Below, one piece after another: positions 9,001 through 27,513 of a stretch of 64,000 bases of DNA. The notes beneath the pieces were generated by a model, which saw nothing but the letters and a program-made list of their open reading frames with translations, ran no database searches and was not told the origin of the DNA. This stretch comes from Aliarcobacter skirrowii CCUG 10374. GTDB lineage: Bacteria > Campylobacterota > Campylobacteria > Campylobacterales > Arcobacteraceae. Both the position numbers and the translations under genes were made by a program. The stretch's first letter is position 1; every line of letters begins with the position of its first letter. The DNA lies in the NCBI RefSeq assembly GCF_003544835.1, contig NZ_CP032099.1, positions 310,001-374,000 of the forward strand, read 5' to 3'.

Positions 9001-9387
9001 TTAAAGCTCTTTTTTATCAAACTCTTTTGCAAAACCTATTAAATCTTTTCTTTTTAAATCGCCTCTATAAACAATATCTTCAACATTGATATCTTTATTA
9101 TTTAAAACTTTTGGAACTGCATCTGAATTTTCTAAAACTTGCATATGACGGCTAAGCTCTTCTTCACTATAACTCATCTGCATATCAGCAGTTATTACAT
9201 TTGGAATTGCTTCAATGACTTTTAGTTTTTTAAGTTCATCTTCAACATTTTCACCCTCTATTGTAATTATAACTCTTCCTTTCTCATCATGCATATGATA
9301 GTCGCAAACACCTGATTTTTTAAGATTTTCAATCACACTTTCTAAATTTTTTGGTAAAGTTGTTACAACTATACTTGAGATATTCAT
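9001..9387 (-). CDS. napD: NapD, chaperone for nitrate reductase maturation
   Basis: 128 residues. The first 85 match NapD: a small cytoplasmic ferredoxin-like fold that opens MNISSIVVTT and includes GRVIITIEG. NapD binds the Tat signal of NapA and guides cofactor insertion (family knowledge). The C-terminal 40 residues, rich in Lys, Asp and Glu, extend beyond the E. coli protein (87 residues). It is the last gene of the nap operon, 11 bases after napL. Confidence 0.9.
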   Translation of the reverse strand: MNISSIVVTTLPKNLESVIENLKKSGVCDYHMHDEKGRVIITIEGENVEDELKKLKVIEAIPNVITADMQMSYSEEELSRHMQVLENSDAVPKVLNNKDINVEDIVYRGDLKRKDLIGFAKEFDKKEL

Positions 9388-9398
9388 TTTTTCTTCCT

Positions 9399-10346
9399 TT
9401 AATTAAGATTATAAAAATTTATTCTAGAATCATCACTTGAGATAACAATTTGATTCTCATTTAAAAATAGAATTTTTGTTAAAATTGCTCTATTTTCTGT
9501 CAAGATAAATTTATCCTCTTTTGATTCTATGTCAAAAACAACAGCATCATTATTTTCATTAAGTAAGATACAAGCTAGTTTAGAACTAGGACTTAAAGCT
9601 CCTGTATAAACTAAAAAATCAAATGATTTATAAAAAGATTTTTTAGAGTTTGTAAAATAAAAAGATGCTCTTCTATCTTGTCCAGTTCCTAAAATAGTAT
9701 CTTTTTTAATATCAACTTGAAAAACTCTATCTACATTTTGACCTTTAAACTCTTTTAGTTTTTTCAAACTTTTTGATTCAAATTGTGTTATTACACCACT
9801 TTCATCTGTAGTAACAAAACTTTTTTTATCACTGCTTAGAGTAAAATCTGAAAAAGATGATTGAGAAACTTGAGTCTGTTTGAGTATTTTACTGTTTTTT
9901 ATATCATATAAAAATATTTGATTTGATAAAAGTGCATAAATAATATGATTATCATCCAAAAATTTTGCTTTTGCAATAAAAAGTCTATTTTTTGAACTTA
10001 CAATATTGTTTAATTTTCCATTTTCATAAATAAATATATCTCTTCCACCATTTTCTCCTTGAGATAGTATTAATACTTTTTCATTTAAAAAATCAACGCT
10101 ATAAATTTTTGACTCAATAATCTCTTGCATAAAATCTTTAATATTTGGAACTTTTATAGATTGTTGAAACTCTTTTTTGCTTATATCAAAAATATCTACC
10201 TTTCCTTTAGAGCTCGCAATAAATATTCTCTCTTTTTCAACAACAAAATCAGTTGCCATTCCATCAATTTCTAAAAAAAATTCTGGCTTTAACTCTTTTG
10301 AATTTAAAAAGATAACAAGAGTGAAAAATATAAAAAATTTAAACAT
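9399..10346 (-). CDS. napL: NapL, periplasmic beta-propeller-like Nap accessory protein
   Basis: 315 residues with a short N-terminal hydrophobic signal (MFKFFIFFTLVIFLNS) and repeated WD40-like strands of the pattern IFDI, IFLYDIKN and VVFDI. NapL is an accessory protein found mainly in Campylobacterota nap clusters; its biochemical role is not settled. Position between napF and napD fits the napAGHBFLD order. The start overlaps the end of napF by 8 bases, so it is translationally coupled. Confidence 0.85.
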   Translation of the reverse strand: MFKFFIFFTLVIFLNSKELKPEFFLEIDGMATDFVVEKERIFIASSKGKVDIFDISKKEFQQSIKVPNIKDFMQEIIESKIYSVDFLNEKVLILSQGENGGRDIFIYENGKLNNIVSSKNRLFIAKAKFLDDNHIIYALLSNQIFLYDIKNSKILKQTQVSQSSFSDFTLSSDKKSFVTTDESGVITQFESKSLKKLKEFKGQNVDRVFQVDIKKDTILGTGQDRRASFYFTNSKKSFYKSFDFLVYTGALSPSSKLACILLNENNDAVVFDIESKEDKFILTENRAILTKILFLNENQIVISSDDSRINFYNLN

Positions 10347-10818
10347 TTAAAACCTTTATAGAGTTAGTTGGACAAACTTTTATGCAAAATCCACAACTTG
10401 TACAGTTGTCATTTATAATAGGTTTAAAAATACCCTCAAAACTTATTGCATTTTCTAAACAAGGATCTTTGCATGAAAAGCACATAGTTTGATTCCAAGA
10501 TAGACAAGTTTTAGTATCTATTTGAATTTTTGCATCTATATTTGATTTATACTTTATATCTAAAACTTCCATATTGCAAGCTTTTGCACAAAGATCGCAA
10601 TATGTACAACCTGAGTTTGAAAAGTTTAAACTAGGAGTTTGGTCTTCTAAAATATAAATAATATTCTCTTCACAAGCTTCACTACAACTTTTTTCTAAGC
10701 ATTTTATGCAATTTGTGAAAAAAATATCTCTATTTTTATAATAAGGAGGTCTAATAATACTCTCTTGCTCTTTTTTAAAAGGTTTAGCAAGAGAGCTAAA
10801 AAGCTCTCTTCTATTCAT
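10339..10818 (-). CDS. napF: NapF, iron-sulfur protein
   Basis: 159 residues with four Cys clusters: CIKCLEKSC, CTYCDLCAKACN, CLSWNQTMCFSCKDPC and CTSCGFCIKVCP, enough for about three to four [4Fe-4S] centres. NapF is cytoplasmic and is thought to help load iron-sulfur or molybdenum cofactor into NapA (family knowledge). The N-terminus MNRRELFSSL has an Arg pair but no hydrophobic core, so export is unlikely. It starts 2 bases after napB and overlaps napL by 8 bases. Confidence 0.92.
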   Translation of the reverse strand: MNRRELFSSLAKPFKKEQESIIRPPYYKNRDIFFTNCIKCLEKSCSEACEENIIYILEDQTPSLNFSNSGCTYCDLCAKACNMEVLDIKYKSNIDAKIQIDTKTCLSWNQTMCFSCKDPCLENAISFEGIFKPIINDNCTSCGFCIKVCPTNSIKVLNV

Positions 10819-10820
10819 AT

Positions 10821-11432
10821 TTATTTAACGCCTTCTTCTATTACATCAAGTAGATTTGATTTATCATTTAAATCACTACTTCTAAACTCTGTTACAAAAT
10901 TATTCTCAGGTACAATTTCACTTTGAGACTGAGGAGCGTGACAAGCTGAACAGTTAAATCTAGCATTTGATAAGTGATCAAGTGGTTTTACAACAGTTTT
11001 TATATCACTACTATTTTCTACTATTTTTCCATCTCTTTGAAGTTGACCTTTTTTATCTATATTTACATCTTCTCTAAAGTTAGTAAAATGAGATTTTGGA
11101 ATAGCAGTTGCTCCCATAGACTCAGCTAACATTGGATCATGGCACATGATACATTGATTATTATCAATTGTAATTGGAAGCATTCCTTCTACATCGTGAG
11201 AGATCATTGGTGGAGCATTCTCAAAAGCTCTTTTAATTTTTGTACTTGCTCCTGCTGGATCAGTCAAATATTTAGTCTCATCTGATACAACTTTAGTCTC
11301 ATCAAGTAAATCAGCATCTCTTAGTCCAAAACTTTTATTCTCTTGAGATTTAGTTTGACTATTGTCACTATTAAAACAAGCAGTAAAAGTTCCTGCAATA
11401 ATTAAAATTAAAGCAAATTTTACTAATTTCAT
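10821..11432 (-). CDS. napB: NapB, diheme cytochrome c subunit
   Basis: 203 residues with two heme-c motifs, CIMCH and CSACH, plus further His residues for bis-His ligation. NapB passes electrons from NapH/NapG to NapA in the periplasm. The N-terminal signal ends GTFTAC at Cys19 followed by a polar FNSDNS stretch, which looks like a lipobox; most NapB proteins are soluble, so lipid anchoring would be unusual. The start overlaps napH by 4 bases (ATGA). Confidence 0.95.
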   Translation of the reverse strand: MKLVKFALILIIAGTFTACFNSDNSQTKSQENKSFGLRDADLLDETKVVSDETKYLTDPAGASTKIKRAFENAPPMISHDVEGMLPITIDNNQCIMCHDPMLAESMGATAIPKSHFTNFREDVNIDKKGQLQRDGKIVENSSDIKTVVKPLDHLSNARFNCSACHAPQSQSEIVPENNFVTEFRSSDLNDKSNLLDVIEEGVK

Positions 11433-12235
11433 TTTTTCTCCTTTATATATTTTCTTAAATCGAAATTTAGTGCATCATCTTCGCACACTTCTACACATCT
11501 TCCACAATTTGTACACTCATCAACTACAGCTTCACTACTTTTATTTATCATATGTAAAACTTGTATTTCAGGGCATACAACCTTACACTTCATACAGTTT
11601 GTACATCTATTGTGATTATGATGAACCCTTATTAGACTAAATCTTCCAATTAGTGAATAAAATCCACCAAGAGGACAAATATGTCCACACCAACCATTTT
11701 TTAAAACAAACAGATCAAACAAAAATATTACAATTATTGTTGCAAATCCAAATCCAAGTCCAAATATCAAACCTCTATGAACCATTGATACAGGAGAAAT
11801 CAACTCAAAAGCTGCAACGCCCATAAAATAAGAGATTATAAAACTAATTAAAATTAGCCAATATCTTAAATTTCTAGTTGCTGGTTGTTTTTTTTGTACT
11901 TCATCAAATTTCAAAACTCTTCTTAAAAAGTTTGCACTATCTGTAATTATATTTACAGGGCAAACCCAAGAGCAAAACGCTCTTCCTCCAAGAGTAAAGT
12001 AGAAAATTGAAATAATTAAAGCACCCAATGCTATATCAAAAGATATAACTGCTCCTGCAAAAATCATTTGTAAAACTGCAAACGGATCACTTAAAGGAAT
12101 TGTTTCTAAAACCAAAGAGCTACTTAAATTCCCCATTAAATAGTTAATTCCATAAATATTTGCCAAAATATATAAAGCTATAATAGAGAGTTGTGTAAAT
12201 CTTCTAGCAATTAAAAATCTATATTTTTTAATCAT
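11429..12235 (-). CDS. napH: NapH, membrane quinol-oxidising iron-sulfur protein
   Basis: 268 residues: four transmembrane segments, cytoplasmic CxxxCP motifs (CSWVCP and CGHICP, characteristic of NapH/NosR/CcoG-type proteins) and two C-terminal [4Fe-4S] ferredoxin clusters (CTNCMKCKVVCP and CTNCGRCVEVC). With NapG it replaces NapC as the menaquinol dehydrogenase for Nap. There is no napC in this operon, as expected for epsilon-type clusters. It overlaps napG by 8 bases and napB by 4. Confidence 0.95.
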   Translation of the reverse strand: MIKKYRFLIARRFTQLSIIALYILANIYGINYLMGNLSSSLVLETIPLSDPFAVLQMIFAGAVISFDIALGALIISIFYFTLGGRAFCSWVCPVNIITDSANFLRRVLKFDEVQKKQPATRNLRYWLILISFIISYFMGVAAFELISPVSMVHRGLIFGLGFGFATIIVIFLFDLFVLKNGWCGHICPLGGFYSLIGRFSLIRVHHNHNRCTNCMKCKVVCPEIQVLHMINKSSEAVVDECTNCGRCVEVCEDDALNFDLRKYIKEKK

Positions 12236-13034
12236 TTAGTAACTCCTGTGTCCCTTTATTTAATGAGTCAATTGCACTCTCTTTGCTTATGTTTGTTTTT
12301 GTCTTTTCTGATGTTGCATTTTTTAATCTTTGCTCATCTGATTCATCCCAACCTTTTATGTAGTGGTCACCAACTTTTCCAAGTGCAATTTCTCGTGGAA
12401 GTACAAAAATTGCTGGTTTTTCAGTAATACAAGCTTTTTCACAAAGTCCACAACCTGTACAAATATCACTATCTACAACAGGTTTTAAAAATGCATGTTT
12501 ACCTGTTCTTTCATTTTTTTCATATACTATATTTATAGCCTCACCTAAAAGTGGACAAGCTCTATAGCAAGCATCGCATTGAATTCCCCAAAAAGCTACA
12601 CAAGATTTTACGTCTACAACTGCAACTCCCATCTCCATTTGTCTTATCTCAAATGCATTATTTGAATCTTTTACAAGTTTTTCATCAAGTGCATCTGTTG
12701 GACAAATAGGAACACAAGGAATATCAACACACATATAACAAGGAATATCTCTTGGTACAAAATATGGAGTTCCCAAAGGTAAATTATCCCCTGGTTTTGC
12801 CAATTTTAGTGTATCAAAAGGGCATGCCTCTACACAAAGTCCACATTTTATACAAGTAGCCAAAAAGTCATCCTCTTTTAGAGCTGCTGGTGGTCGAAGT
12901 ATTAAGTTACTAGCTTTTACCTCACTTAAATATGCACTCCATGTTAAACTACCAAGAATAACCAGACCAATAGTTCTAGCACTTTTTAGAATAAATTTTC
13001 TTCTATTTTCTTGATAGTTTTCAACTATATTCAT
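12228..13034 (-). CDS. napG: NapG, periplasmic ferredoxin-type quinol dehydrogenase subunit
   Basis: 268 residues with a Tat-like signal (NRRKFILKSA before a hydrophobic run) and four [4Fe-4S] clusters: CIKCGLCVEACP, CYMCVDIPCVPICP, CDACYRACP and CTGCGLCEKAC. It carries electrons from NapH to NapB on the periplasmic side. The acidic, Lys-rich C-terminal 40 residues are poorly conserved. It follows napA by 9 bases and overlaps napH by 8, so it is in the same operon. Confidence 0.95.
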   Translation of the reverse strand: MNIVENYQENRRKFILKSARTIGLVILGSLTWSAYLSEVKASNLILRPPAALKEDDFLATCIKCGLCVEACPFDTLKLAKPGDNLPLGTPYFVPRDIPCYMCVDIPCVPICPTDALDEKLVKDSNNAFEIRQMEMGVAVVDVKSCVAFWGIQCDACYRACPLLGEAINIVYEKNERTGKHAFLKPVVDSDICTGCGLCEKACITEKPAIFVLPREIALGKVGDHYIKGWDESDEQRLKNATSEKTKTNISKESAIDSLNKGTQELLND

Positions 13035-13043
13035 CTTTAATCC

Positions 13044-15854
13044 TTATGCTTTATAAATTTTTACAGCACATTTTTTAAAGTCAGTTTGCCCTGATTGTGG
13101 ACAAGTTGCATCTAAACAAACTTTGTTTATAAATACCTTTTCATCAAACCAAGGAACAAATACTAAACCTCTGCTTGGTCTATTTCTTCCTCTTGTTTCA
13201 ACTCTTGCTTTTACTTTTCCTCTTCTTGATTCAACCCAACAAAGCTCCCCTTGTTTTACACCATACTTATTTGCATCTTCAGGGTGCATATAGCAAAGTG
13301 CTTCTGGAACTGCCCTATAAAGTTCTGGAACTCTCATAGTCATAGTTCCACTATGCCAGTGTTCTAGTACTCTTCCAGTACTAAGCCAAACTGGATACTC
13401 TTCATTTGGAATTTCAGGTGGATCCATATATGGTCTTGCAAATATTTTTGCTTTATTTTTTAGAGATTTTTTAGTTTGATCTTTAACCCCTAGTAAATCA
13501 CCTTGAGCTAACTCTTTTGCTAATGTTCCATAGAAGGCAAAATCACTATTTGGATTTGCTTTTTTTGCATATGGATCATATTTTGTATTAAATCTCCAAG
13601 ATGTCTCTTTCCCATCTACAACTGGCCATTTTAGTCCTCTAACTCTATGATAAGTGTCAAAATCAGCTAAATCGTGAGCATGTCCTCTTCCAAAATTTGC
13701 ATACTCTTCAAATAGATATTTTTGTATAAAGAAACCATAACCTTTCCATGGTTTTCCATCGCTACCTATTACATTTCTATTATCACCAAATGCTTCAGTA
13801 TTGTCATATCCAGCTTGAATTTCATCATTTAAATCAGCTTTGTATGATTTGGCTTTTTCATTTGCAAATAAAATCTCATACATAGTTGTATCTTCATTGT
13901 AGCCCATAGCTTTTGCAGCTTCAATAATACTTGGAAGTTTTAATTCACCTTTTGAACTTTGAACTTCTTGTTCACCCCATAAATCTTTAACTGTAAATCT
14001 TTTTGAAAGTTCAACCCACTGCCATGTATCACTCATAGCATCACCAACAGGAAGAACTTGCTGTCTCCAAAGTTGTGTTCTTCTTTCAGCATTTCCATAT
14101 CCACCCCATTTTTCATAAATCATAGCAGATGGTAGAATTAAATCTGATACTTTTGCACTAATTCCAGGGTATGCTTCGCTTGTAACAATGAAATTATCCA
14201 TCTCTCTAGCTGCTTTTACCCAGTGAGTTGCACTTGCAGTATTTTGCCATGGATTGTTTACATTTACCCAAGCAAATTTAGTATTTCCATCTTCTAAATC
14301 TCTCATAATCTTCATAAAAGTTTGAGTTCCCTTTGGATTTATAGTTCCAAGTGGTACATTCCATGCTTTTTCAGTAATTTCTCTATGTTTTGGATTTTCA
14401 TTCATCATATCAGCTGGAAGTCTATGTGTAAATGTTCCAACTTCTCTTGCTGTTCCACAAGCACTTGGTTGACCAGTTAAACTAAATGCACCACTTCCTG
14501 GTTTTGCCTGTTTATTTAGTAAAAAGTGAACATTATATGAAAGTGTATTTACCCAAGTTCCTCTTGTGTGTTGATTCATTCCCATAGTCCAAAAACTTAC
14601 AACTTTTCTATCTTTTTCAATATACCAGTCAGCAAGTTGTTGAAGTTTTTTCTTAAACTCCTCAATATCCTCATCAGGATCTCCTTTAGAAATTTTTGCA
14701 ACATAATCTAAAGTATAAGGCTCTAAAAACTTTTTATACTCTTCAAAACTAATCTCCCAGTGAGCAAGACCACTATCTTTATTAGTCATTTTATCACCAG
14801 CTTTATATCCATAAGGAGCAAGCGCAGGAGCCTCAGTTTCAGATACAATTTTCTCCATCTCTTTGCTTATAGTTTCCATTTCAGCTTTAGAGTATTTTCC
14901 TTCTTTGATTGATTTTTCATCAGATTTTCTCATTCCATAACCAATATTAACAGGACTTGCTGCAAAAACAATATGCTCTTTTACAAAATCCCAATCAATA
15001 GCTTCTGGACGATTGTAAACAATCTCTCTTGCTATATAGTTCCATAAAGCTAAATCTGTATTTGGAGTAAAGATAATCTCTAAATCAGCAATATCAGATG
15101 TTCTATGTCTATAAGTTGATAGATTTATCACTTTAACTTTCTCTGGATTACTAAGTTTTCTATCTGTAACTCTTGACCATAAAATTGGGTGCATCTCTGC
15201 CATATTTGAACCCCAACAAACAACTGTGTCTGTTAGTTCAATATCATCATAACAACCACTTGGCTCATCAATACCAAATGTTTGATAAAAACCAACAACC
15301 GCACTTGCCATACAGTGTCTTGCATTTGGATCAATTCCGTTTGATCTAAATCCAGCTTTCATCATTTTAAGTGCTGCATAACCTTCCATAATTGTGTATT
15401 GTCCACTTCCAAATACACCAATTCCTTCAGGACCTTTCTCTTTTAAAGCAGCTTTGATATGTTTTTCCATCTCATCAAAAGCTCTTTCCCAAGAAATAGG
15501 TGCAAAGTTACCTTTTTTATCAAATTCACCTTTTTTATTTACTCTTAGCAAAGGAGTTTTAAGTCTATCTGCTCCATACATAATTTTTGCATTAAAGTAC
15601 CCTTTAATACAGTTAAGCCCTCTGTTAACTGGAGCTGCTGGATCACCTTTAACAGCAACAATTTTTCCCTCTTTTGTTGCAAGCATAATTCCACACCCTG
15701 TACCACAAAATCTACAGGCTGCTTTATCCCAACGCCAACCACTCTCAGCAACATTTGCTTGTGCTTTTAAATCTGTTGGTACACTCATACCAATAGCTGC
15801 TGCTGCACTTGCGGCTGCTGAACTTTTTAGAAAATCTCTTCGTGAAAGCGACAT
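13044..15854 (-). CDS. napA: NapA, catalytic subunit of periplasmic nitrate reductase
   Basis: 936 residues, close to Campylobacter NapA. A Tat signal (SRRDFLKSS, cleaved near residue 31) is followed by the [4Fe-4S] ligands Cys47, Cys50, Cys54 and Cys82 and the molybdenum ligand Cys181 (ARHCMAS). The enzyme reduces nitrate to nitrite with a Mo-bis-MGD cofactor. AAGGAG lies upstream of the ATG. It is the first gene of napAGHBFLD; an FNR-type box with matching -10 lies 36-77 bases upstream. moaA for the cofactor is nearby under a similar box. Confidence 0.98.
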
Positions 15855-15889: not shown

Positions 15890-15931
15890 ATGTTAACGAA
15901 AAAGGTGTGAAGTAGATTTGATGTTAATCAA
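15890..15931 (-). promoter_or_regulatory. FNR/NssR-type nap promoter
   Basis: A perfect TTGAT-N4-ATCAA palindrome occupies 15918-15931. Reading toward napA, 22 bases follow and then TAACAT (15895-15890, 4 of 6 with TATAAT). That is the exact geometry of a class II Crp/Fnr promoter centred at -41.5, with transcription start expected near 15883 and a 28-base leader. Confidence 0.75.
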
Positions 15932-15970: not shown

Positions 15971-16963
15971 TTAATTTTTAACTCTTTTTTCACAAAATAA
16001 TATTATTTTTTCAAGTTCATTTTTTAGTTCGGCTAATCTTTTTGCAGAGTGCAAAAGTTGCTCTTGAGTCTCTATAGCAATATCTTCACTTCTGTTTAGT
16101 TGAAGAGATATCTCACTTTTATTTTGTAACTCATTTATAATTTCATCAAACTCATTTGTGATCTCTTCAAGTTTAACTGAGGCATTTTTAGATTGCTCTA
16201 ATGCACTGTTTGAATCAATTATTGCACTATTTATCTTTTTTAAAAAATTATTTAATACATTGCTAGCATCAACAAACTCATTTTCAGCCTCAATCTCTAT
16301 TGGTTTTAAAGGATTTGCAAAATTTTGCTCCATCGCTTTTTTAGACTCTTTAATAAACTTTAATGCATTTTTTTTCATATTTTTTAATTCTAAAAAGCTA
16401 TAAAGTATTAGAAAGATAATTAAAATTGCAAAAAAATATTGAGTATTTTTTAAAAAATTAACTTTTTTTTCACTATTAATTGTATATAAAGATACTAAAG
16501 CATCTATCTCGTTTAATAATTTTATATTTTTTGAGTATATTAAATCAACAATCTTTTTTAGCTCTATATCTTCTTTATTTTTTTGCAACAAAGATTTAAA
16601 TTGTTCTATATTTTTATAAAAATCATTCCATAAAAATTCAACTTTAAGTAGTTGATTCTCTATTTGAAATGTTGGAATTTTTTTTAGACTATTCTCTCCT
16701 TTTAAGCTATTTAAATTGTATATAAACTCTTTAATACTACTGTTTAGTTCATCTTTTGAAGCAGTTTTGTTTTGATTTAAGTAGAAGATATTTTTTGAAA
16801 TATTTTGAGAAAGCATTCTTTGTTTACCAGCTATATTTATAATTGTTGCATCTTTGTGATTTTTATCATTTAAATATATTGTGGTAGTAACAATACTTAG
16901 CAATAAAAGTGTAAATAAGATTCCAATAATCTTTATTTTTGTGCTAATACTATTTTTTTTCAT
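15971..16963 (-). CDS. Membrane sensor with PilJ/NarX-like nitrate-type domain and no kinase
   Basis: 330 residues: membrane helix 1 (about 11-30), periplasmic helical domain opening with INIAGKQRMLSQNISK (43-57), membrane helix 2 (about 176-193) and a cytoplasmic coiled-coil region to the end. The opening motif is that of PilJ-type sensor domains and resembles the nitrate-binding P-box of NarX/NarQ. No histidine kinase, GGDEF or chemotaxis signalling hairpin can be found in the cytoplasmic part. The start overlaps the stop of the Crp/Fnr-type gene by 4 bases, and the gene ends just before the nap promoter. It may signal nitrate through that regulator or an unlinked partner; this is inference. 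Confidence 0.75.
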   Translation of the reverse strand: MKKNSISTKIKIIGILFTLLLLSIVTTTIYLNDKNHKDATIINIAGKQRMLSQNISKNIFYLNQNKTASKDELNSSIKEFIYNLNSLKGENSLKKIPTFQIENQLLKVEFLWNDFYKNIEQFKSLLQKNKEDIELKKIVDLIYSKNIKLLNEIDALVSLYTINSEKKVNFLKNTQYFFAILIIFLILYSFLELKNMKKNALKFIKESKKAMEQNFANPLKPIEIEAENEFVDASNVLNNFLKKINSAIIDSNSALEQSKNASVKLEEITNEFDEIINELQNKSEISLQLNRSEDIAIETQEQLLHSAKRLAELKNELEKIILFCEKRVKN

Positions 16964-17625
16964 TCTCCTACTCCTTTAAAAATTGAATTTAATGCTATTT
17001 TATCTTTAATCTCTATTTTTTGATTCTCTATTTCAATAATTCCATCTCTTGATAACTTCTTTAAAACTCTAGAGAGAGTTTCAGGTTGAATGTGTAACAT
17101 AAAACTCACATCTTGTCTTTTTAAGCTATTAAACATTTTTAAATCGCTAGATATCATGAATGCAACTTTTGCAGTTGCATCAAATACAAGCTCTCTATTT
17201 ATTAAACATTGAAGTTTATGATTTTTTTTAAAAAGAGCTTCTACTAACTCATTTACTAATAAATTTTTATCAAAAAAATGCTCTTTTAATTTTTTGAAAT
17301 TAATAAATAGTACTATTGAATCCTCAACAAAAGATGCATTAGAAAAACAGTTTATTTCAGTGTTACTTATAGAGCTTAGTTCACTCACTAAAGAGTCTTC
17401 ATAGATATGATATAGAAAAATTTCATTATCAAATTTATCATATTTATAAACTTTTATCATTCCAGAAACCAAAAAAATAATATTGTTATTTAAATCAGTT
17501 TCATAAAAAAGAATAGACTCTTTTTTATATTTTGATATAAAAGAGAAAGATGATAAAAGTTCAAGATTTTTTTCATCTAAGTTTTTAAAAAAGCTTAAAT
17601 TTCCAAGGCTTTCAAAAAGTGTCAT
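16960..17625 (-). CDS. Crp/Fnr-family regulator, NssR-like
   Basis: 221 residues: N-terminal cyclic-nucleotide-binding-type beta barrel (about 15-120), long dimer helix and C-terminal winged HTH with recognition helix QPETLSRVLKKL. The E-xx-S-R pattern in that helix is what FNR/NssR-type proteins use to read TTGAT-N4-ATCAA, the sequence found before napA and moaA. The FNR-type N-terminal Cys cluster is absent, so it is not an oxygen-labile [4Fe-4S] FNR; it is closer to NssR/DNR nitrosative or nitrogen-oxide regulators. It is divergent from moaA and coupled to the PilJ-like sensor gene. Control of nap is likely but inferred. Confidence 0.82.
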   Translation of the reverse strand: MTLFESLGNLSFFKNLDEKNLELLSSFSFISKYKKESILFYETDLNNNIIFLVSGMIKVYKYDKFDNEIFLYHIYEDSLVSELSSISNTEINCFSNASFVEDSIVLFINFKKLKEHFFDKNLLVNELVEALFKKNHKLQCLINRELVFDATAKVAFMISSDLKMFNSLKRQDVSFMLHIQPETLSRVLKKLSRDGIIEIENQKIEIKDKIALNSIFKGVGE

Positions 17626-17723: not shown

Positions 17724-17765
17724 TTGATAAAAGTCAAAGAGTATTATATTTTAAGAAGATAGAAT
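17724..17765 (+). promoter_or_regulatory. FNR/NssR-type moaA promoter
   Basis: TTGAT-AAAA-GTCAA (17724-17737) matches the FNR palindrome at 9 of 10 specified bases. After exactly 22 bases comes TAGAAT (17760-17765, 5 of 6 with TATAAT), the same class II spacing as at napA. Transcription would start near 17772, giving a 20-base leader. The site also lies upstream of the divergent Crp/Fnr gene and might feed back on it. Confidence 0.65.
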
Positions 17766-21135: not shown

Positions 21136-22410
21136 CTAATCCTCAATTGTTATAAGTTTTAATTCAAATTTAGCAATAGCTCCACTCTTCCCATCACTTC
21201 TATTTTTTATAGATATTTCAGCATTTAAAGCATCAGCAGCTATTTTTGCAAGATAAAGACCTAATCCAACTCCACTTTTATCTCCAACTTTTTTAAATGG
21301 AGCAAAAACATCTATTTTTTCATCTATTCCAACTCCTTCATCTACTACACTTAAAATAATTGTATTATCTATTTTTTTGAAATATACTTCAATATTTTTT
21401 CCATTTGGAGTAAATTTGATAGCATTTTGTACAAAATTTTGAAGTATCTGCATAAAAAGAGTCTCTTGAATATTTAGCTCAAAGCTAGAGGTGTTTGTAA
21501 TAAATCTCATATTTATCTCTTTTTTTAAAGCTAACATCTTATAATCTTCAACTTTTTTATTTATAAAAGATACAAGCTCAATATTTTTTGACTGTTCAAA
21601 TTGAGCGCCTTCAGTTCTTCCAATATCTAAAATTGAGCTAATCATAATATTCATGCTATTTATTTCACTAATAGTTAATTTTATAGCATCTTCATATTCA
21701 CTTTTTTCTCTTGGTTTTTTAAGCATAAGCTCATTTTTAAGTTTCATAACAGCAAGAGGAGTTTTAAGTTCATGCGCAATTCCTATGTATAACTCTTTTT
21801 TAAATTTAAGGTATGTACCTATACGATTTGTTAAAGAGTTTATAGAGTTTGCAAGTGTTGTAAACTCTGTTGGAAGATTTTTTGTATCAATTTGTGATAA
21901 AGAGTTTTCATCCATATTTGATAATTTTTTATTTATTTCAACAATAGGTTTTAAAAGAGATTTAGCAACTACCAAAGAGTAAATGAGCATTAAAATAAAA
22001 CCAGGAATTGCCAAAGAGAAGAAGTTTTTAAAAATAATTGAATTTAAAATATCTCTTTCAAGAGTTATATCTTTTGTGATTTGTAAAAATGCATCATCAT
22101 TCATAGGAAAAATTAATTTTGCAAATGTTTTATCATCTTGGAAAAATTTTATAAATTTAATATCTTTTTGATTATTTTCTAAAAAAACTACTTCAATCTT
22201 TTGTGTTTCATTAAAGATATTTTTAAATTTATCAAAAGATATGTAAGATTTTTCAATATGTTTAGCTTGCTTTAAAAGATTTTTTTCAATATTACTATAA
22301 AAAGAGCTTTTTGCATATTCATAAAATATAAATGAGAGAATAATTAGAAAAAAAGAGGTAGCTATAATTAGTTTTGTATAAAACTGTTTATAGATACTCT
22401 TAATTTTCAT
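21136..22410 (-). CDS. Sensor histidine kinase
   Basis: 424 residues: membrane helix about 12-32, a periplasmic domain of some 90 residues, second helix about 135-155, a HAMP-like linker, dimerisation domain with IAHELKTPLAV (His near 213), and ATPase domain with N box QNFVQNAIKF, G1 DEGVGID and G2 GVGLGLYLAK. It would autophosphorylate and pass phosphate to the OmpR-type regulator encoded 10 bases upstream. Signal unknown. The adjacent divergent gene encodes a periplasmic chaperone, so an envelope-related signal is conceivable. Confidence 0.93.
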   Translation of the reverse strand: MKIKSIYKQFYTKLIIATSFFLIILSFIFYEYAKSSFYSNIEKNLLKQAKHIEKSYISFDKFKNIFNETQKIEVVFLENNQKDIKFIKFFQDDKTFAKLIFPMNDDAFLQITKDITLERDILNSIIFKNFFSLAIPGFILMLIYSLVVAKSLLKPIVEINKKLSNMDENSLSQIDTKNLPTEFTTLANSINSLTNRIGTYLKFKKELYIGIAHELKTPLAVMKLKNELMLKKPREKSEYEDAIKLTISEINSMNIMISSILDIGRTEGAQFEQSKNIELVSFINKKVEDYKMLALKKEINMRFITNTSSFELNIQETLFMQILQNFVQNAIKFTPNGKNIEVYFKKIDNTIILSVVDEGVGIDEKIDVFAPFKKVGDKSGVGLGLYLAKIAADALNAEISIKNRSDGKSGAIAKFELKLITIED

Positions 22411-22420
22411 AATTTAAATA

Positions 22421-23104
22421 CTATTTTTCCTCAGAAACTTGGTTTGGATAACAAAATCTATAACCTCTTCTTCTAATTGTTTCAATAGTTGAAATATTTA
22501 ATGGTTTATCCATTTTTTGTCTAATTTGATTTATTGCAACCTCAATAACATTTGGAGTTACAAGCTCAGGCTCTTCCCAAATAGCATCAAGCAGTTGCTC
22601 TTTTGAAACAATTTGATCTCTATGACGTGCAAGGTGAGTTAAAACTTCAAAAGGTTTACCTTTTAACTCTATCTCTTCTCCAGCATATTCTATTTTTTCT
22701 TCATCAGGATTGATAATTAAATCATCAATTTCTATAATATTTGTTCCACCAAATCTTAATCTTGCTTCAATTCTAGCAAGTAAAATATCAAAATCAAATG
22801 GTTTTTTAATAAAATCATCAGCACCTGATCTTAGTGCTTCAATTTCACTCTCTTTATCATCTCTTGCAGAGATAATTACAACAGCAGTTCTTGAACTTCT
22901 GTTTTTAACAATTTTACACAGTTCAATACCATCACCATCAGGTAGCATCCAGTCTGTTAAAACTAAATCATAATTTCTAATATCAATAAAGTACTCAGCA
23001 TCTTTGTAGTTTTCAGCGCTATCAACTTGGTAACCAAAATCAACTAATCCTTCTTGCAGTGTTCTATTTAATGTTATTTCATCTTCAATAATCAAAATTC
23101 TCAT
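22421..23104 (-). CDS. OmpR/PhoB-family response regulator
   Basis: 227 residues from ATG 23104 (AAGGA upstream); a longer frame to 23152 exists but lacks a better ribosome site. Receiver domain with acidic pocket EDE (7-9), phospho-acceptor Asp51 (TDWMLPDGDG) and Lys in FIKKPFD, then a C-terminal winged HTH (DAIWEEPELVTPNVIEVAIN, RRRGYRF). It forms a two-component pair with the following kinase gene and is divergent from peb4. Target genes are not evident. Confidence 0.94.
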   Translation of the reverse strand: MRILIIEDEITLNRTLQEGLVDFGYQVDSAENYKDAEYFIDIRNYDLVLTDWMLPDGDGIELCKIVKNRSSRTAVVIISARDDKESEIEALRSGADDFIKKPFDFDILLARIEARLRFGGTNIIEIDDLIINPDEEKIEYAGEEIELKGKPFEVLTHLARHRDQIVSKEQLLDAIWEEPELVTPNVIEVAINQIRQKMDKPLNISTIETIRRRGYRFCYPNQVSEEK

Positions 23105-23212
23105 TTCTATCCTTAAACTTAAGTTAATTTTAATTTTGCGGAAGTATATCATAAAAAAAAGTTTTTTTAAATAGAGTTTAAACTAAAAATATAAAAATAA
23201 AGGAAAATATAG

Positions 23213-26115: not shown

Positions 26116-27513
26116 CAAAAATTAATTAAAATTTATACAAAAATCCCAAGATCAAATGAAAAAGATGTTGATTTAGCAGTTGAAGCTGCAAAAAAAGGTT
26201 TTGAAGAGTTTAAGCATACATCTGTAACTCAAAGAAGTGCTTTATTAAACAAAATTGCAGATATAGTAGAGGCAAATTTAGAGACTTTGGCAGTTGCTGA
26301 AACACTTGATAATGGAAAAGCTGTAAGAGAGACTTTAAATGCAGATTTACCTCTGTTTATTGACCATTTTAGGTATTTTGCATCTGTTATAAGAGCTGAA
26401 TCTGGGACAATTTCTGATTTGGATGAGAACACTATATCTCAAGAGATTTATGAGCCTTATGGAGTTGTTGCTCAAATTATTCCTTGGAATTTTCCACTTC
26501 TAATGGCAGCTTGGAAACTAGCACCTGCAATTGCTGCTGGAAATTGTGTTGTTTTAAAACCAGCTAGTTCAACTCCACTTTCAATACTTCTATTTTTAGA
26601 TTTAATAAAAGATGTTTTACCAAAAGGTGTTATAAATGTTGTAAATGGAGCAGGTGGGAAAATAGGTAAACATCTTGTAACTCATAGAGATGTTAAAAAA
26701 GTTGCATTTACAGGAGAGACAAGTACAGGTCAAGAGATTATGAGATATGCAACTGAAAATATAATTCCATCAACTCTAGAACTTGGTGGAAAATCTCCAA
26801 ATGTCTTCTTTAAATCTATAATGGATGCTGATGATGAGTTCTTTGATAAGGCAATTGAAGGGCTTGTACTATTTGCATTTAATAGTGGAGAGGTTTGTAC
26901 TTGTCCATCAAGAGCTTTAATTGAAGAGTCAATTTATGAACCATTTATGAAAAGAGTAATTGAAAGAGTAAAAGCTATAAAACTTGGAAATCCTCTTGAT
27001 ACAGAAAATACAATGGGTGCTCAAAACTCTTTTAACCAAAAAGAGAAAATTGCAAAATATCTAAAAATTGCAAAAGAGGATGGGGCAGAGTGTTTAGTTG
27101 GTGGAGATATTTATCACTCTTCTATAAATCCAGATGGATTTTATATAGAGCCAACGATTTATAAAGGTCATAATAAAATGAGAATTTTCCAAGAGGAGAT
27201 TTTTGGACCTGTTTTATCTGTAACTACTTTTAAAGATGAGAAAGAGGCTATTGAAATTGCAAATGATACTATTTATGGATTGGGTGCTGGAGTTTGGTCA
27301 AGGGATGCACACCAAATTCATAGAGTATCAAGAGCTATTCAAGCTGGAAGAATTTGGGTAAATTGTTATCATGTTTATCCAGCTCATGCCTCTTTTGGTG
27401 GGTATAAGAAATCTGGAATTGGAAGAGAGACTCATATGATGATGTTAAATAACTATAGACATACAAAAAATATTTTAACTTCATTTAATACAAAAGCTTT
27501 AGGATTTTTTTAA
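26116..27513 (+). pseudogene. Aldehyde dehydrogenase, N-terminus missing (AldB/ExaC-like)
   Basis: The frame is open from 26116 (after TAA at 26113) and encodes an intact ALDH from YTKIPRSNEKDVDLAVEAA onward, through Glu in LELGGKSPN and the catalytic Cys in GEVCTCPSR. Homologous reading starts at 26131 or so, well before any usable start: no ATG, GTG or TTG occurs in frame before TTG 26287, which would lose another 50 or so conserved residues. About 40-45 residues usually preceding the IPRS motif are absent, and no ribosome site is seen. The rest has no stops or shifts, which points to a fairly recent 5' deletion next to mdh. A functional short protein from TTG 26287 (408 aa) is unlikely. 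Confidence 0.75.

Follow-up and report, generated by a model that had tools for sequence, protein, structure and literature searches.

A kinase-less PilJ/NarQ-type sensor gene coupled to a Crp/Fnr regulator gene beside nap in Aliarcobacter skirrowii, a pair that recurs in other Campylobacterota

In the window, by which we mean the whole stretch of 64,000 nucleotides of Aliarcobacter skirrowii CCUG 10374 DNA that was analyzed, the napAGHBFLD genes adjoin a gene pair encoding a Crp/Fnr regulator and a PilJ/NarQ-type sensor that lacks a kinase. This pair is a conserved unit and not a chance arrangement, and the feature is broader than the window, since the pair recurs across the phylum Campylobacterota. 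We lean toward viewing the two proteins as a phosphorylation-free transmembrane pair, in which a nitrate receptor would control its Crp partner by direct contact and the partner would act at a box before napA. Nitrate as the ligand, the direct contact and the sign of the effect are what we infer. The coordinates of all features are collected in Table 1.

Table 1. Positions of the gene pair, its parts and the adjoining nap genes in the window
Feature	Position	Strand	Basis
Sensor ORF, kinase-less PilJ/NarQ-type, 330 aa	15971..16963	-	PF13675 E 4.7e-16, AF2 model
TM helix 1, residues 12-30	16874..16930	-	hydropathy peak 2.27
N-box INIAGKQRMLSQ, residues 42-53, predicted nitrate site R49	16805..16840	-	published pattern and alignment
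TM helix 2, residues 170-193	16385..16456	-	hydropathy
HAMP-like segment, residues ~195-248	16220..16381	-	structural suggestion only
C-terminal cytoplasmic signature RSEDIAIETQEQLLHSAKRLAELKNEL, residues 291-317, candidate docking/output helix	16013..16093	-	alignments
Crp/Fnr regulator, 221 aa, NssA clan	16960..17625	-	Pfam, tree, CRP/FNR fold
TTGA-N6-TCAA box, far edge 77 bp before napA	15918..15931	.	conserved in relatives
napA, presumed main target	13044..15854	-	NCBIfam NF010055, 1445 bits
napG, napH, napB, napF, napL-type, napD-type	9001..13034	-	NCBIfam and gene order

The sequence-only reading of this DNA had described a PilJ/NarX-type sensor with two membrane helices and no kinase, encoded by a gene overlapping that of a Crp/Fnr regulator, and this description was borne out. 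Both ORFs were found, the Crp/Fnr gene lying upstream with its stop overlapping the sensor start by 4 nt. PilJ (PF13675) is the sole Pfam family over its cut-off in the sensor (59.3 bits against 26.6), two hydrophobic helices are evident, and no HisKA, HATPase or MCP domain of Pfam scored over its cut-off in the window protein. The best NCBIfam match of the sensor is NarQ, at a sub-threshold score covering residues 1-307 (1.8e-7). PF13675 was also matched in 69 of 70 sensor relatives (E up to 1), and no kinase core was found among the 25 commonest families in 70 members, weak H-kinase_dim matches being seen in five of them (best 0.012). The whole-genome search returned a single PilJ-family match in the genome of the window. 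For the adjoining operon, NCBIfam placed napG and napH above cut-off and napB, napF and napD below threshold, while the napL-type label is one that we assume. Elsewhere in the window, an aldehyde-dehydrogenase-like frame at 26130-27513 appears by eye to be missing its 5' end and is possibly a truncated gene; its first listed start is a TTG at 26287, and a homologous-looking frame extends upstream of it without a start.

Along the sensor, TM1 is followed by a periplasmic helical bundle carrying the N-box, then by TM2, the HAMP-like segment, a coil and a C-terminal helix (residues 289-329 in the model). The N-box exactly matches the pattern [IVL]-[ND]-x-A-G-x-Q-R-M-L-[ST]-Q given for nitrate-binding PilJ domains in the available part of PMC6381276, where the N-box arginine of such domains is described as contacting nitrate on the dimer axis. 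Residue R49 of the sensor aligns with the P-box arginine of NarQ and with the N-box arginine of McpN. The AF2 model has a mean pLDDT of 80 and a pTM of 0.54 and is weakest at the C-terminal hairpin (pLDDT about 41-67). Its top Foldseek matches are NarQ fragments spanning the sensor, TM and HAMP parts (5jgp, 1.8e-4, TM-score by target 0.73; 5jeq, 0.80), with McpN ranking after them. When residues 1-248 of the model were compared with NarQ 5iji, 222 positions aligned at a Z score of 14.9 and an rmsd of 4.0, values to be read with caution, since helical bundles give such scores broadly; over the periplasmic part of the model, Z 15-17 was reached by several further sensor bundles. Pfam gave no HAMP match to the window protein, and the HAMP-like segment is a suggestion from structure.

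How conserved the pairing is was surveyed in 120 Campylobacterota regions (L052-L171), centered on sensor matches and some Crp matches, in which an iterated sensor HMM called 108 sensor-type ORFs. Directly downstream of a same-strand Crp-HMM ORF were 102 of these, at gaps of -62 to +63 nt (-4 in 47/102); without L138, L139 and L140, which were chosen by their Crp match, the proportion is 99/105. This is the outcome of the gene-neighbor survey that the sequence-only reading had called for, and the observation it had named as telling against the idea, a sensor conserved without the regulator, was absent, the six unpaired ORFs being contig edges or other architectures. They comprise L071, in which the contig starts within the sensor, a 562-aa ORF (L106_7753, E 2.5e-9), and L132-L135. 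In a second collection, consisting of the best 80 of 269 loci and drawn partly from the same species, with its named groups all Campylobacterota, 77 of 79 tail-bearing ORFs were paired and the other two touch a contig edge. The four ORFs L132-L135 (in G234, G126, G158 and G273) are of 293-561 aa, carry two or four N-boxes, have no paired Crp and show at most one clear hydrophobic helix region; they are possibly periplasmic nitrate-binding proteins.

Within the genus sample, the sensor and its Crp partner are both present in 24 of 25 genomes. The remaining genome (G001) has neither the sensor nor a good Crp match nor napA, and one draft genome (G015) has the pair and no napA match. Across the phylum sample, NapA was matched in 250 of 298 genomes and the sensor query in 77, so nap does not require the sensor at this scale. 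After removal of G126, G158, G234 and G273, whose matches are not paired sensors, all 73 sensor genomes have NapA (compared by eye). Three further pair genomes were found via Crp, with NapA in G223 and G258 and absent from G145, and the G145 sensor (L140) has no N-box. Some genomes carry two pairs (L142/L143 in G034, L067/L076 in G278 and L068/L078 in G213), which differ in subtype and in each of which the sensor adjoins a Crp of its own. A decaying pair was seen in G354, where a broken sensor frame (L264) leaves a 179-aa remnant with the tail behind an intact Crp gene.

The Crp partner matches the Pfam families HTH_Crp_2 (9.6e-10) and cNMP_binding (1.7e-7), and structure comparison gives a CRP/FNR fold. 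In a midpoint-rooted tree of 125 Crps, 19 solo Crps stand apart from all paired Crps with a support of 1.0, and this solo group includes two Wolinella succinogenes Crps and the second Crp of the window genome (L170), while three unpaired Crps (L136, L137 and L264) fall inside the paired clan. The W. succinogenes genome is taken to be G194, as its NrfA is identical over 507/507 residues to 1fs9_A, which we take to be the W. succinogenes NrfA. This genome has three Crps: L096, which lies near nap and has a tandem sensor as its partner; L279, which is 34 % related; and L278, which lies directly before a split nosZ with no room for a sensor gene between. Identities to the W. succinogenes Crps presumed to be NssA, NssB and NssC are 44.2/30.3/22.8 % for the window Crp, 45.0/28.6/27.6 % for L113 and 45.2/28.6/25.5 % for L102. 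The last two sets resemble the 44.8/29.2/26.1 % given for the Nitrosophilus labii Crp in the accessible text of PMC11539149, and on this basis the paired, nap-neighboring W. succinogenes Crp is probably NssA. The window Crp is placed with it in the NssA clan, apart from the presumed NssB and NssC. Positions N96, R144, N166 and Q180 are clan-specific and thus candidate surfaces; Q180 lies beside the recognition helix, and DNA reading may explain its clan specificity. The second Crp/Fnr of the window genome (L170, G000:C1:1906680-1907282) shares 42.7 % identity with the Crp taken to be NssB in W. succinogenes, and a TTGAYN4RTCAA site at 1907317-1907330 near its start could point to autoregulation of L170.

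The clan also bears on an alternative that we regard as unlikely, namely that the Crp senses a signal of its own, be it NO, redox or a ligand in the cytoplasm, as is thought for NssB/NssR, and that the sensor tunes the amount of Crp or is a co-transcribed accessory. Members of the NssA clan without a sensor do exist beside nap (L136 and L137, in G285 and G043), which means that the regulator is not strictly tied to the sensor, and no sensor gene adjoins solo relatives, among them the presumed NssB and NssC. In a 73-sequence Crp alignment, Cys93 of the window Crp is invariant and Cys140 nearly so; the two could be a redox or metal site, and a second input through them, by redox or NO, is possible. 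However, an accessory role does not sit well with the pairing of 102/108 sensors or with a tail signature no less invariant than other parts of the sensor.

As for where the regulator acts, Crp-type boxes had been proposed before both napA and moaA, and the napA box stood while the moaA box did not. A perfect TTGA-N6-TCAA box was found within 250 bp of napA in 33/37 relatives (28/32 at pair loci and 5/5 elsewhere), against a background of 140/4000 random stretches and 52/1125 other ORFs, making the box before napA a real phylogenetic footprint. In the window a perfect box is also present at 17724-17737, 68 bp before moaA; moaA was rejected as a co-regulated target on finding a box within 250 bp in 0/32 relatives. 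Autoregulation of the crp gene was likewise unsupported (box at crp in only 2/42). The window as a whole has 5 boxes against 4.88 expected, and a genome-wide regulon was dropped when a refined box gave 27 sites versus 19 control sites in the window's own genome, so the box alone predicts little. A box precedes nosZ in 12/13 nosZ loci. A scan of ten nrf-linked loci for perfect intergenic boxes close to a gene start gave none. Since two nap loci (L161 and L162) have the box and lack the pair, a similar box is probably also recognized by solo Crps of the NssB kind, and the box is therefore not specific to the paired regulator.

To relate the N-box to respiratory context, 103 paired sensors (window included) were sorted by their nearest marker and scored as strict (published N-box pattern) or loose (near variants). 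NosZ, NosD, NrfA, NrfH and uroporphyrinogen methyltransferase were named by NCBIfam, and NirS and NorB/NorC, for which NCBIfam gave no match at the threshold used, by eye. Strict N-boxes predominated among nap-linked sensors (31 of 34, with 2 loose and one, L094, without an N-box, its R being changed), nrf-linked sensors (10 of 12, with 2 loose) and nir/nor-linked sensors (4 of 4). Sensors with uroporphyrinogen methyltransferase next door were divided (5 strict and 5 loose of 10), as were the 30 with no listed marker (14 strict, 12 loose, 4 without an N-box); many pairs, for example Helicobacter-like ones, stand beside none of the respiratory operons searched for. The 13 nosZ-linked sensors include 1 loose N-box (L062) and 12 without an N-box; nosZ-linked sensors in the range L076-L088 have lost the N-box GxxR and retained the C-terminal signature. 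The 12 without an N-box form one clade, which makes the loss one evolutionary event and means that the relation between N-box and operon is not independent evidence. The N-box-less nosZ-linked sequences suggest ligands other than nitrate.

Since pairs also stand near nrf, nir-nor and nosZ, the family need not be nitrate-only, and the pair could be real while the ligand in A. skirrowii is something else, such as nitrite or another respiratory anion. We think this quite improbable given the exact N-box of the window sensor and the strict or near N-boxes in 32/33 nap-linked (without the window), 4/4 nir/nor-linked and 12/12 nrf-linked sensors; moreover, in the part of PMC6381276 available, PilJ domains without the N-box did not bind nitrate, whereas McpN, which has it, did.

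The second conserved element of the sensor is the C-terminal cytoplasmic signature, a motif of roughly (S/T/K)-E-D-I-x-I-(Q/E)-(S/T)-x-E-x-L...L..L(K)..L. In the window and the 102 other paired sensors, E293 is kept in 103/103, I297 in 102/103, L303 and L313 each in 100/103 and L310 in 97/103. It is present in single-PilJ sensors (about 300-345 aa), tandem-PilJ sensors (about 425-490 aa) and N-box-less sensors alike, and we infer that it would be the output element of the sensor. A tail-only profile was run against 397 genomes and a subset of its matches was fetched and inspected. Every fetched match at 1e-17 or better was either a PilJ sensor next to a Crp or the broken L264, and the weaker ones were one paired PilJ sensor (L269) and otherwise proteins of MCP length or a 390-aa membrane protein without an adjacent Crp; among the fetched matches from these 397 genomes, the tail was not found on a sensor domain other than PilJ. 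That the sensor works with a separate histidine kinase or a chemoreceptor array, with no direct wiring to Crp, is the poorest of the alternatives and very unlikely: the tail is helical and HAMP-like, MCPsignal is weakly matched in 7/70 relatives (best E 0.003), the tail profile weakly matches MCP-length frames, and some 4 to 7 kb away, at 21136-23152, there are genes for a histidine kinase and a response regulator, but the conserved unit contains the Crp gene and no kinase gene. In the synteny of the genus the neighboring kinase goes with moaA/rpsO, and in other families most pairs do not have it as a neighbor.

Covariation between sensor and Crp was calculated from 190 pairs (151 after near-copy removal, Neff 89.5). 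No enrichment was found in the signature, where 0.76 % of signature pairs fell in the top 1 %. The top pairs mostly involve residues of the periplasmic and TM parts, the majority of them out of reach of Crp; these pairs look like phylogenetic signal and locate no docking site.

Direct control of Crp by a nitrate receptor, the mechanism that we favor, would work as follows. The sensor would be a dimeric receptor of the NarQ/PilJ type, with nitrate bound at its periplasmic N-box, and binding would be relayed through the TM helices and the HAMP-like segment to the C-terminal helical hairpin with the signature. This hairpin would contact the co-translated Crp/Fnr protein and set its activity, either by freeing Crp from the membrane or by keeping it in the form that binds DNA, and the regulator would then act at TTGA-N6-TCAA upstream of napA. 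Because translation is coupled, the unit contains no kinase and the tail is invariant, a stoichiometric contact fits better than a catalytic relay. A wider proposal, which we put forward tentatively and consider doubtful as a whole, is that a phylum-wide class of receptors switches Crp/Fnr proteins through one C-terminal helix, with nap, nrf, nir-nor and nosZ each having their own receptors and the N-box-less nosZ branch of one family responding to another ligand, possibly a nitrogen oxide such as N2O.

The pair would fill a gap in what is described for this phylum. According to the portions of PMC6682613 and PMC8139620 available, NssA contributes to the nitrate up-regulation of nap and nrf by a sensing mechanism that is not understood, and the latter calls for more work on the sensing of nitrate, NO and N2O by the Nss regulators. 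The available text of PMC6682613 also states that Campylobacterota are without orthologues of regulators such as NarP, and that Nap of Sulfurospirillum multivorans was reported to be unresponsive to nitrate. No description of such a receptor/Crp pair was found in the open-licence papers searched. The sensor is a candidate receptor for the nitrate branch in Campylobacterota, with a predicted binding residue, output segment and partner, and, if the mechanism holds, a receptor resembling NarX would here act on a Crp/Fnr protein with no phosphotransfer in between.

Among known systems, the E. coli sensors NarX/NarQ appear to share with it the order of TM, PilJ-type bundle, TM and HAMP, the last being a structural suggestion for our sensor, and have a G-x-x-R in their P-box. 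They differ in having a histidine-kinase core and NarL/NarP as partners, whereas the sensor ends in a short conserved C-terminal helix and is partnered by a Crp/Fnr protein. McpN of Pseudomonas aeruginosa has a PilJ domain with the same N-box, but carries an MCP signaling hairpin that the sensor lacks. On the regulator side, the Crp partner is probably orthologous to NssA of W. succinogenes, with which it has 44.2 % identity and shares the clan, the nap neighborhood and the box, although NssA is described without a membrane partner in the available parts of PMC6682613, PMC11539149 and PMC8139620. Solo Crps of the NssB/NssC/NssR type share the Crp/Fnr fold and respond to nitrogen oxides, yet the presumed NssB and NssC fall in another clan and stand without a sensor next to them (NssR is outside the tree set). 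The front half of the receptor appears to be of a known kind, as is the regulator; what is new is that the two are conserved as a pair without a kinase and that the sensors have a putative output signature in common.
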